From the NCBI RefSeq assembly GCF_001429505.1, contig NZ_LMJW01000001.1, forward strand, positions 746,606 through 810,605: DNA of 64,000 bases. Reading direction: 5' to 3'. The position numbers were made by a program, and so were the translations under genes. Shown here in pieces: positions 988 to 12,605 of the stretch. Origin of the DNA: Allobosea sp. Root483D1 (GTDB taxonomy: Bacteria > Pseudomonadota > Alphaproteobacteria > Rhizobiales > Beijerinckiaceae). Numbering within the stretch: the first letter of the stretch is position 1; each line of letters opens with the position of its first letter. The notes under the pieces were generated by a model. The model did not search any database, had not been told where the DNA came from, and saw only the letters and a list, made by a program, of their open reading frames with translations.

Positions 988-1470
988 TCAGGACCGGCCT
1001 TCGTGCTCGGCTGCGGTGAGGTTTCGCCGCAGCCGCACCATCTCCTCGCGCAGATGGCGCTGCTCCTCGGGGGCCAGGCCGGCCGAGCGCTGCATGCTGA
1101 CCCGGACCGCCCTGCCCCGCTCGCGGAGCGCCCGGCCTTGCGCCGTCAGATTGAGGCGCACCTGGCGCTCGTCCTGCGGGTCACGGCGACGGGTGAGCAC
1201 GCCCATCGCCTCCAATCGCTTGAGCAGCGGCGTCAGCGTGCTCGAATCCAGGAAGAGCTTATCGCCGAGCCCGCCGACAGTCTGGTCGGCTTCCTCATAG
1301 AGCGCGACCAGCGCGATGTATTGCGGATAGGTCAGCCCGAGCTCGTCGAGGAGCGGCTTGTAGACGCGGTTGAAGGCAAGATTGGTCGAATAGACCGCGA
1401 AGCAGAGGAATTCGTCGAGCCCTGGCAGCCGCTCGGCGCCGGCCTGCTCCTGTCCTGAATCGTCCGCCAA
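988..1470 (-). CDS. MarR-family regulator, OhrR-like thiol-peroxide sensor
   Basis: A 160-residue winged-helix protein. Residues about 18-45 (EFLCFAVYSTNLAFNRVYKP) resemble the N-terminal helix of OhrR, including a cysteine at position 23 where OhrR proteins carry the peroxide-reactive Cys. This is the only Cys, so it would be a one-Cys type. The DNA-binding helices and wing follow (LDSSTLTPLLKRLEAMGVLTRRRDPQDERQV). The start is TTG at 1470, with GGAGAG seven bases upstream; no ATG fits. It is transcribed away from a small exported peptide and a DipZ-type gene, with a long palindrome between them, so it probably controls itself and those genes. No ohr peroxidase is adjacent, which is unusual for an OhrR. 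Confidence 0.8.
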   Translation of the reverse strand: MADDSGQEQAGAERLPGLDEFLCFAVYSTNLAFNRVYKPLLDELGLTYPQYIALVALYEEADQTVGGLGDKLFLDSSTLTPLLKRLEAMGVLTRRRDPQDERQVRLNLTAQGRALRERGRAVRVSMQRSAGLAPEEQRHLREEMVRLRRNLTAAEHEGRS

Positions 1471-1542
1471 TGCGTCTCTCCGGAAATTGATCGCTCACAG
1501 ATATTTGATGCGCGATTTATTTTCAAGCGGTTGAACGGCCTC

Positions 1543-1597
1543 GCTCCATCATTTAATTGTCGAGAGATTAGATCGCTCGACAAGTAAATGATGGAGC
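1543..1597. promoter_or_regulatory. 55-bp inverted repeat, candidate MarR/OhrR operator
   Basis: Arms 1543-1564 and 1576-1597 are complementary over 22 bp with a single mismatch, separated by 11 bp. Each arm contains an AT-rich core (ATTTAATTGT in the left arm) resembling the ACAATTAAAT half of the Bacillus OhrR box. A plausible plus-strand promoter (TTGAAC at 1531, TTTAAT at 1552) overlaps the left arm. The Shine-Dalgarno GGAG of the downstream gene sits in the right arm, so the element could act on DNA or as an RNA hairpin. The operator role is inferred from position. Confidence 0.6.
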
Positions 1598-1602
1598 ACG
1601 AG

Positions 1603-1815
1603 ATGACCCGCATCGCTCCCTTAACCGTCACGGCGCCCAACCCGGGCCGACCAGAAACCGCTCCTGCTCCGCGTCGCCTGCTGCTGGCGGCGATGCTGGC
1701 GGCGGCTACGAGCTTCGCCATGGCCTGCAGCGCCTTCACCGGCCCGCGCAGTTACGGGGCCGCCCCGGTCGCGTCATCAAACCCGCCGCCGCGGCGCGGC
1801 GCAACCCGCCCCTGA
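1603..1815 (+). CDS. Small exported or membrane-anchored peptide of unknown function
   Basis: ATG at 1603 has GGAG six bases upstream (1593-1596) and is preferred to the ATG at 1588, which lies inside the palindrome arm. The 70-residue product has an N-terminal segment with RR followed by LLLAAMLAAATSFAMAC, which looks like a signal peptide or single membrane helix. The short tail is rich in Pro, Ala and Arg. It ends 19 bp before the DipZ-type gene and is probably co-transcribed with it. I do not recognise a family. It could be a remnant of a longer exported protein or a leader peptide. Confidence 0.45.
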   Translation: MTRIAPLTVTAPNPGRPETAPAPRRLLLAAMLAAATSFAMACSAFTGPRSYGAAPVASSNPPPRRGATRP

Positions 1816-1834: not shown

Positions 1835-3547
1835 ATGAACCTCGCTCTCGCCTATCTCACCGGCGTCCTGACCATCGCCAGTCCCTGCATCCTGCCGGTC
1901 CTGCCCTTCGTGCTGACGCGTGCCGGTCAGCCTTTCCGCAGCAGCACCTTGCCGATGCTGCTCGGCATGGCGCTGGCTTTCGCTGCCGTGGCAAGCCTCG
2001 CCGCCGTCGCCGGCAGCTGGGCGATCGCGCTCAACAGTCATGGCCGCAGCATCGCCCTCGGCCTCGTCGCCCTGTTCGGGCTCGCCTTGCTGTTCCCGGC
2101 TCTGGCGATGCGTCTCGCCGCCCCGCTGACCGCTCTCGGCGAAAGGCTGACGCGCAGCACCGGTGCGGACGGTCGCACCGATCTGCGGCCAGCCTCGTCC
2201 GCCCTGCTCGGCGTCGCCACCGGCCTGCTCTGGACGCCCTGCGCCGGACCGGTGCTCGGCTTGATCCTGGCGGGAGCCGCGCTTGGCGGGCCGAGCCTCA
2301 GCACTGCTTTCCTGCTCTTCGCCTATGCCGCCGGCGCGGCGACGGCGCTGGCCGCCGTACTGCTGTTGGGCAACCGGCTGCTGGCGCGGGCTCGGCGACC
2401 CGCAGCTCTACTCGAACCTATCAGACGTGGCCTCGGCCTCGCCGTGGTCGCGAGCACGATCGCGATCGGCTTGGGCTTCGACACCAGTGTCCTCACCCGC
2501 CTGTCGGCCCCTACCACGGCCGCGATCGAGCAGCGCCTCCTCGACATCGCCATGCCAGCGGCACCTGGCCTCGTCACCACGGCGCAGGCGCAGCCCGCCT
2601 CCAAGCCACTGTTCGGCGCGAGGCAATGGCTCGACCGCGAGCCACTCACTGCCGAGAGCGTGCGCGGCAAGGTCGTGCTGGTGAATTTTTGGACCTATTC
2701 CTGCATCAACTGCCTGCGCACGCTGCCTTATGTCCGGGCCTGGGCCGAGAAGTACAAAGATCGCGGCCTCGTCGTGGTTGGCGTGCACACACCGGAATTC
2801 GCTTTCGAGAAGGACATAGGCAATGTCCGCAAGGCGGTCGCGGCGCTCGGCGTGAGCTATCCGGTCGCGATCGACAACGACTATGCGGTCTGGCACGCCT
2901 TCAGCAACCAGGCCTGGCCGGCGCGCTATTTCATCGACGCGCAGGGCCGGACCCGGCATCACGAGTTCGGCGAGGGCGACTATGCCGCCTCCGAGCGGGT
3001 GATCCAGTCGCTGCTCGCCGAGGCCGGTGGCAAGGTCGAGCCCGGCATCGCCAAGGTCTCGGGTGAAGGCGCGCAAGGAGCGCCCGATTTCGCCAATCTG
3101 CGCTCGCCCGAGACCTATCTCGGCCATGCCCGCAGCAACGGCTTCGCCTCGCCGGGTGGGATCAGGGCCGATGCGCCGGCCACCTATGAAGCCGCCACCT
3201 CGCCGCGCCTCAACCAGTGGAGCCTCTCCGGCAATTGGACCGTCGCCGGCGAGTTCGCCACGTCGCAGCAGGCGGGCGGGCGGATCACCCATCGCTTCCA
3301 TGCCCGCGACCTGCATCTGGTGATGGGTCGTGCGCCCGGCAGCTCGCCGGTCCGCTTCCGCGTCACCATAGACGGCGCCGCGCCCGGCAGCGCCCATGGC
3401 GCCGATATCGACGCCGACGGCTATGGCACAATCAGCGGCGAGCGCCTCTATCAGCTCGTCCGCCAGGACGGGGCGGTGAAGCCCCGCGACTTCTCCATAG
3501 AGTTCCTCGATGTCGGCGCCCGCGCCTACGCCTTCACCTTCGGCTGA
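1835..3547 (+). CDS. DipZ-type fusion: CcdA membrane domain, TlpA-like thioredoxin, C-terminal beta domain
   Basis: 570 residues. Residues 1-225 form a CcdA/DsbD-like electron-transfer membrane domain with the paired cysteines Cys18 (SPCILP) and Cys136 (TPCAGP). Residues about 255-400 are a TlpA/thioredoxin domain with active site C290-I-N-C293. Residues about 410-570 form the extra beta domain typical of DipZ proteins. The protein would carry electrons from cytoplasmic thioredoxin across the inner membrane to reduce periplasmic disulfides or sulfenic acids. It follows the small peptide gene by 19 bp. Placement opposite an OhrR-like sensor suggests induction by organic peroxide or thiol stress. 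Confidence 0.85.
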   Translation: MNLALAYLTGVLTIASPCILPVLPFVLTRAGQPFRSSTLPMLLGMALAFAAVASLAAVAGSWAIALNSHGRSIALGLVALFGLALLFPALAMRLAAPLTALGERLTRSTGADGRTDLRPASSALLGVATGLLWTPCAGPVLGLILAGAALGGPSLSTAFLLFAYAAGAATALAAVLLLGNRLLARARRPAALLEPIRRGLGLAVVASTIAIGLGFDTSVLTRLSAPTTAAIEQRLLDIAMPAAPGLVTTAQAQPASKPLFGARQWLDREPLTAESVRGKVVLVNFWTYSCINCLRTLPYVRAWAEKYKDRGLVVVGVHTPEFAFEKDIGNVRKAVAALGVSYPVAIDNDYAVWHAFSNQAWPARYFIDAQGRTRHHEFGEGDYAASERVIQSLLAEAGGKVEPGIAKVSGEGAQGAPDFANLRSPETYLGHARSNGFASPGGIRADAPATYEAATSPRLNQWSLSGNWTVAGEFATSQQAGGRITHRFHARDLHLVMGRAPGSSPVRFRVTIDGAAPGSAHGADIDADGYGTISGERLYQLVRQDGAVKPRDFSIEFLDVGARAYAFTFG

Positions 3548-12564: not shown

Positions 12565-12605
12565 AATGAAAAGGCCGGCGAGCATTGCTCGCCGGCCTTT
12601 TCATT
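12565..12605. terminator. Bidirectional hairpin terminator between argG and the phytase-like gene
   Basis: A perfect 19-bp stem (12565-12583 with 12587-12605) and a 3-nt loop. The GC-rich core is flanked by A-rich and T-rich ends, so it can stop transcription from argG and from the convergent gene. Confidence 0.85.

Follow-up and report, generated by a model that had tools for sequence, protein, structure and literature searches.

What is the role of a large palindrome that lies between a MarR-type regulator gene and a divergent dipZ gene? The question was addressed in the window, i.e. the whole stretch of DNA analyzed here, which covers 64 kb within a 6.6-Mb genome. Based on comparison with related loci, we consider it highly probable that the palindrome (P1) is the output-side operator of the neighbouring OhrR-type repressor (988-1470), which would be released by peroxide and would control a small frame and dipZ. 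The main features are listed below.

Positions 988..1470, minus strand: OhrR-type MarR regulator of 160 aa with a TTG start (domain search, matches to solved proteins, alignment)
Positions 1543..1597, no strand: large palindrome P1, candidate output-side operator (repeat search, shuffles; inner part conserved in nine loci)
Positions 1593..1596, plus strand: GGAG, putative Shine-Dalgarno sequence of the small frame, within the right arm of P1 (by eye)
Positions 1603..1815, plus strand: small frame of 70 aa with a hydrophobic segment followed by one conserved Cys, possibly exported (tblastn, nine loci)
Positions 1835..3547, plus strand: dipZ, with a DsbD/CcdA-type membrane domain, a redoxin/thioredoxin domain with CINC and a C-terminal Thioredoxin_10 domain (Pfam, translation)

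The palindrome and its conservation

P1 is an inverted repeat with 26-nt arms (1543-1568 and 1572-1597) that are separated by 3 nt and paired at 24 of 26 positions (92 % complementary). When inverted repeats were scored with +1 for a match and -2 for a mismatch, P1 reached a score of 20, compared to a maximum of 11 among the control set of 300 dinucleotide shuffles of the intergenic region 1471-1834. The palindrome is real, and the 22-bp arms with one mismatch described in the initial annotation (1543-1564 and 1576-1597) match the sequence. A total of two inverted repeats with a score of 20 and a loop of ≤20 were found in the 64-kb window, P1 and 12565-12605. The latter is a G+C-rich hairpin flanked by runs of A and T and is probably a bidirectional terminator. 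One full copy of P1 was found in the genome; apart from its reverse strand, the search returned two 14-bp matches (E-value 4.67). A repeat family or a mobile palindrome was rejected on this basis.

The regulator was present in 9 of 67 same-genus genomes (86-99 % identity), and the best identity of the remaining matches, among the matches listed, was 61 %. In all nine genomes carrying the regulator, dipZ is divergent to it. Conservation was calculated from an alignment of the nine intergenic stretches. The block 1486-1534, which was overlooked in the first reading, showed a mean pairwise identity of 93.9 % with 40 of 49 columns invariant, and the spacer 1535-1550 showed 45.7 %. The corresponding values for P1 were 77.8 % (left arm), 81.8 % (core) and 72.4 % (right arm). 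Persistence of the palindrome with the gene pair in relatives had been proposed at the outset as a refutation test, and the palindrome does stay with the pair: its inner part was kept in 9/9 loci, whereas the outer arms were less constant and several relatives are palindromic in the inner part alone.

This pattern also bears on the reading of P1 as an RNA or DNA hairpin, either an attenuator or a structure masking GGAG. The left arm does pair over the Shine-Dalgarno GGAG in the window. However, several of the relatives have retained the centre but not the outer pairing. An Rfam search of 1400-1900 matched no family and a scan found no terminator-like site, both of which speak against an RNA element. 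We regard a hairpin function as highly improbable.

The regulator

The regulator contains a MarR domain (PF01047, 55.6 bits) and its closest solved proteins are the OhrRs 2pfb (E-value 5e-36), 2pex (1e-34) and 1z91 (4.5e-28), which we take to be those of Xanthomonas campestris (2pfb and 2pex) and Bacillus subtilis (1z91). The sensing Cys of B. subtilis OhrR is Cys15. In a gapless alignment to 2pfb, Cys23, Tyr37 and Tyr48 of the regulator fall on Cys22, Tyr36 and Tyr47, and Arg128 is found where X. campestris OhrR carries the resolving Cys127. The roles of Cys22, Tyr36 and Tyr47 are described in PMC5201249. A single Cys per regulator was observed in 9/9 clade members. The aligned Cys23 and Tyr pair, Arg128 in place of Cys127 and the single Cys thus make the regulator, as judged by sequence, a member of the OhrR class and its 1-Cys subclass. 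The initial call of a one-Cys OhrR-like MarR was therefore sound, as the single Cys is Cys23 and the best solved relatives are OhrRs. With the NCBIfam OhrR model NF052638 the regulator scored 124.7 bits, under the 200-bit cut-off of the model; the short name of NF052638 suggests a Vibrio-type model, and the missed cut-off does not exclude an OhrR.

A regulator of this kind might have lost peroxide sensing and respond to another ligand or oxidant. It has only one Cys, and the OhrR relative SydR responds much more strongly to NaOCl than to peroxides (PMC11633110). However, the sensing Cys and both Tyr residues are conserved and functional 1-Cys OhrRs are known (PMC5201249), so we judge a loss of peroxide sensing unlikely.

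A search of the 64-kb window for OsmC/Ohr returned no match, which means that the regulator is not beside ohr here and agrees with the earlier remark that no ohr peroxidase was in sight. Elsewhere in the genome, five OsmC matches were found, two of them beside OhrR paralogs.

The probable operator core

Positions 1565..1575, no strand: candidate operator core AGATTAGATCG with dyad centre 1570 (comparison with OhrR promoters of the genus, matrix)

These 11 bp were taken as a loop in the first reading, and they form an OhrR-like core at the exact centre of P1. The core CGATYNAATCG is exact in seven of the nine dipZ loci and is off by one base in the window (AGATTAGATCG) and in L048. Among 34 OhrR loci, CGATYNAATCG palindromes (L004, L056-L073) occur with regulators whose L-D/E-S-x-TLTP motif contains Ser or Asn, and CAATYNAATTG palindromes (four loci: L002, L074-L076) occur with Gly. 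Exceptions are L075 (Gly), which has a mixed core, L012 (Ser), which has no site, and L149, which is without the motif. This match of Gly versus Ser/Asn to the core is correlative and comes from a small number of independent lineages; it hints at a simple rule by which OhrR paralogs would be matched to their promoters.

A symmetrised matrix was built from 40 sites of 19 OhrR divergons outside the dipZ clade, at widths of 27, 15 and 11. The training sites were chosen by the core pattern with at most one mismatch, and some of them (L059 at 110, L060 at 135 and L067 at 120, among others) share bases with a second site and could be spurious. When the matrix was applied to the nine dipZ promoters (374-390 positions each), the P1 centre was the best site in 9/9 at all three widths, in a test that is not fully blind as the pattern was first noticed by comparing P1 with the ohr promoter of the same genome. 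In the 64-kb window, the P1 site ranked 3rd of 63,986 positions (15 bp), 6th of 63,990 (11 bp) and 18th of 63,974 (27 bp). With the 15-bp matrix the window and L048 scored 11.2, compared to 15.8-21.1 in the other seven loci, and the low score of the window's own site is due to the altered core base. With the 27-bp matrix the own site scored -1.8, yet it was the best in its promoter.

Exact CGATYNRATCG occurs at four other places in the window and misses P1, and the core pattern with one mismatch was found 21 times against 23.1 expected by chance, so there is no enrichment. Thus, outside its promoter context, the core has little predictive value. A genome-wide search for CGATYNAATCG gave 47 rows (palindromes counted on both strands), of which 26 are CGATCGAATCG. 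P1 is missing from these matches because of its altered base; two others, C18:521327 and C18:521382, are in the ohr/ohrR promoter. Overall, the comparison supports a resemblance of P1 to the OhrR operators of the genus, with a core diverged from the classic box.

In the initial annotation, the OhrR half-sites were seen in AT-rich cores of the arms. That placement is probably wrong: the OhrR-like core sits at 1565-1575, the centre of P1, and the arms probably also hold the -10 region and the Shine-Dalgarno sequence. A related proposal would make each arm a classic OhrR box (ACAATTAAAT and ACAAGTAAAT) with centres at ~1554 and ~1586, a spacing of about three helical turns, and two bound dimers. 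The minus strand of the left arm reads ACAATTAAAT, which is close to TACAATT-AATTGTA (PMC5201249). However, CAAT goes with the four Gly-type loci (L075 with its mixed core) and not with the Ser/Asn types, and the left outer arm, in which the relatives differ, spans the probable -10. The best matrix site also falls on the centre in all nine promoters, although only CGAT-type sites went into that matrix. Two boxes in the arms are, in our estimation, a distinctly unlikely arrangement.

It could also be that P1 is an OhrR operator used mainly or also by the canonical paralog C18:521471, which is beside ohr, with dipZ belonging to a general ohr regulon. The operators of the paralog and P1 have the CGATYNAATCG-type core in common, and the Gly that marks the helix motif of CAAT-type OhrRs is replaced in both regulators by a polar residue, Ser or Asn. 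On the other hand, the regulator gene adjoins P1 in 9/9 loci, the outer arms differ (GTCGAG vs GTATCC), and Agrobacterium tumefaciens EstR and OhrR are without cross-regulation (PMC5201249), though their operators differ more. We give the paralog a small chance and keep the adjacent regulator as the probable ligand of P1.

Promoter layout

Positions 1486..1534, no strand: conserved block with the leftward marR promoter and the regulator-side OhrR-like site (nine-locus identity; hexamers by eye)
Positions 1513..1523, plus strand: degenerate candidate operator core on the regulator side, CGATTTATTTT, centred on 1518 (layout comparison, matrix)
Positions 1531..1536, plus strand: TTGAAC, candidate -35 of the rightward (dipZ) promoter (from its 18-nt offset from CGATT)
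Positions 1552..1559, plus strand: TTTAATTG, candidate -10 within the left arm of P1 (from its place between TTGA and the second core)

A sigma-70 consensus promoter was rejected for this locus, as the consensus scan returned 0 promoter sites at the threshold of the tool. Thus, the -35 and -10 assignments rest on comparison with other OhrR promoters. The overlapping promoter of the initial annotation got no support from the consensus scan and has the same comparative basis; the promoter layout is like that of ohr promoters. The leftward marR promoter was read by eye as TTGAAA (1526-1521), 17 nt and TATCTG (1503-1498).

The centre of CGATTTATTTT lies 52 bp from that of P1 and is placed relative to TTGA like CGATTAAATCG in the ohr promoters. 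When the 27-bp matrix was used, the place 52 bp from P1 ranked second in seven and third in two of the nine clade loci, and this regulator-side site is degenerate in 9/9. The offset from CGATT to TTGA is 17-19 nt in ohr and hydrolase promoters, compared to 18 nt here.

The same order (regulator-side CGAT site, 17-19 nt, TTGA, AT-rich -10-like stretch, second core) was found in 28 divergons by a search run with no shuffled control. The 28 consist of 9 dipZ divergons, 6 ohr-dipZ divergons, 5 of ohr type, among them L065 with its missing ohr, and 8 members of the hydrolase group, among them L060 on a contig that stops short of the hydrolase. In some loci the second core has one or two mismatches (two in the ohr locus L072), and the ohr promoters in which both cores were found have 54-57 bp between them. 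The dual-operator plan is a candidate whose positions fit by comparison, with a degenerate regulator-side site. The P1 core is accordingly placed as a candidate site near the start of the rightward transcript.

dipZ and the small frame

The earlier call of a DipZ-type fusion was confirmed by the domain order DsbD_TM, Redoxin and Thioredoxin_10 at 1835-3547. DsbD_TM (PF02683) scored 27.1 bits, exactly at its 27.1 cut-off, Redoxin (PF08534) 47.8 and PF17991 168.6. The CxxC of the thioredoxin-like domain is CINC.

The small frame at 1603-1815, between P1 and dipZ, was absent from the first reading and was found by tblastn in 9/9 loci. Differences among the relatives amount to 15.3, 8.6 and 24.2 % at codon positions 1, 2 and 3, respectively. 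Its presence in all nine loci, with changes rarest at position 2 and most frequent at position 3, makes it probable that the frame is a real gene. A Pfam search of the 70-aa product gave nothing up to an E-value of 0.1. In L050 the end of the frame is shifted and it reads on to the dipZ start. Among the loci compared, the frame is confined to the nine OhrR-dipZ genomes, and the Cys-containing peptide is a possible exported partner of DipZ.

Linkage of dipZ to ohr

The order ohrR-ohr-dipZ was found in six related same-genus genomes (one was Pfam-scanned and gave the OsmC family), which makes dipZ an ohr-linked gene. The DipZ proteins of these six genomes group with that of the window (100/98, 46 rows). 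The first DipZ tree gave a long-branch warning and a smaller mixture-model tree kept the grouping; the DipZ trees take in seven of the nine window-type loci, without G101 and G102.

In the OhrR tree (34 rows, midpoint root), the nine dipZ-paired regulators formed one group (100/98). This group adjoins 12 other OhrRs (joint branch 96/95), 10 of which are directly beside ohr: those of the six ohrR-ohr-dipZ loci and L004, L061, L064 and L067. The remaining two are L065, without ohr, and L149, a Rhizobium OhrR with ohr ~1.4 kb away. As the window regulator stands beside this mixed group, a loss of ohr here and a gain there both fit.

Thirty DipZ loci were collected from 101 genomes, and 13 of them have an OhrR-type gene in their 1.5-kb flanks (7 without ohr and 6 with it). 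When 80 named DipZ loci were examined with flanks of 4 kb, 34 gave an ohr-like match (tblastn E-value ≤ 1e-8), in many cases truncated where the locus ends; OhrR was also found in one of the 34 (L149), and a further locus of the 80, L077, has a window-type OhrR. The dipZ loci with an ohr-like gene nearby (within L087-L155) come from many rhizobia, Microvirga and one Variovorax. The 80 loci are not independent, as many are from close rhizobia, two pairs are from the same strain, and L125 belongs to the same genus as the window. A response regulator was recognised by eye in 8/8 inspected ohr-dipZ loci, and Pfam identified a kinase and a regulator in L093, an alpha/beta hydrolase in L115 and MsrA in L091. 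The ohr-like genes, OhrR and two-component genes near dipZ thus point to organic-peroxide company under more than one kind of control.

Taken with the ohr-like gene near dipZ at 34 of the 80 named loci, a peroxide sensor before dipZ connects DipZ with the defence against organic peroxides. For mycobacterial dipZ, a passage in PMC9861118 only surmises the substrate and calls the controlling stimulus obscure.

Proposed mechanism

The proposed control of DipZ by a peroxide sensor is well supported by comparison. In the proposed mechanism, the reduced repressor dimer would bind the CGATYNAATCG-type core at 1565-1575, near the start of the small frame/dipZ transcript, and a weaker contact with the degenerate site 1513-1523, next to the promoter of the regulator gene, is probable; binding and repression are what we infer from comparison with other loci. 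Organic hydroperoxide (or hypochlorite) would oxidise Cys23. Because there is no resolving Cys, a mixed disulfide with a small thiol is proposed, upon which the repressor would be released; the conserved residues are the basis for this predicted release, and hypochlorite is considered as an inducer in view of SydR. DipZ would then be made and would pass electrons from cytoplasmic thioredoxin through the CcdA-like membrane part to the outer thioredoxin domain, a topology and an electron transfer to the envelope that are predicted from the domain make-up. The presumed substrates are oxidised envelope thiols, which DipZ would repair with the 70-aa Cys peptide as a possible partner.

A broader conjecture, which we put forward tentatively and with some doubt, is that this OhrR has shifted from the cytoplasmic peroxidase Ohr to the export of reducing power. 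Organic hydroperoxide would induce DipZ and a tiny exported Cys peptide, and lipid peroxides would be answered by envelope thiol repair. One recognition-helix residue (Gly vs Ser/Asn) would decide between CAAT and CGAT operators, and paralogs could thereby serve separate outputs within one genome.

Comparison with known systems

The OhrRs of B. subtilis (1-Cys) and X. campestris (2-Cys) share with the window the MarR fold, the sensing Cys with its Tyr pair and a short AT-centred palindrome. The window differs from them in having no ohr partner, a CGATYNAATCG core in place of CAATT-N-AATTG, and DipZ as the output. The six ohrR-ohr-dipZ genomes have a related OhrR and DipZ and the same promoter plan, but there ohr sits between the two genes.

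OhrR paralogs with non-Ohr outputs are already known from EstR and SydR. In the EstR/estC system of A. tumefaciens, footprints placed operator OI over the target -10 and OII over the regulator -35 (PMC5201249). EstR is like the window regulator in being an OhrR paralog divergent from a non-ohr gene with a two-operator plan (in the window, a plan assigned by comparison), and unlike it in being 2-Cys, in its operator GTTATCGCGATAAC and in its esterase output (PMC5201249). SydR of Sinorhizobium meliloti is likewise an OhrR-like redox repressor of an adjacent non-ohr gene, but it is 2-Cys, mainly senses NaOCl and has another target (PMC11633110). S. meliloti OhrR binds two palindromes in the divergent ohr promoter (PMC3107159), and for Azorhizobium OhrR the text consulted mentions an inverted repeat without its letters (PMC7141136). 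The mycobacterial mpt83-dipZ-mpt70 genes resemble the window in that dipZ lies beside genes for exported proteins and is under regulated control; however, the control is by SigK/RskA and the regulator is unrelated (PMC9861118).

A literature search, with subscription journals mostly outside its scope, found no paper joining OhrR or 'organic hydroperoxide' with DipZ. In the text available, OhrR and CcdA are separate topics in PMC8945050, and so are DipZ and MarR in PMC9861118. The initial suggestion of a different output for this regulator class is thus partly upheld: DipZ as output was unmatched in the literature searched, but other outputs are known, namely the EstR esterase and the SydR target.

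Other OhrR-linked loci

The other OhrR genes of the genus adjoin ohr or an alpha/beta hydrolase gene (one of each was identified by Pfam). Among the OhrRs L056-L060, L062, L063 and L066, the alpha/beta hydrolase is beside seven of eight, and in L060 the contig ends earlier. Six of these seven hydrolases have an RR signal-like start by eye, and the promoters of this group hold paired CGAT-type sites 55 bp apart. In L065, the opening of a hydrolase frame (2089-3150) resembles the N-terminus of Ohr (DSGRTHATGGRE), which has the look of an ohr loss through a deletion that joined the ohr start to the hydrolase. A perfect inverted repeat of 21-22 nt with a 16-nt loop lies between ohr and dipZ in L037 (1354-1411) and L039 (1350-1409), and is possibly a small repeat element.
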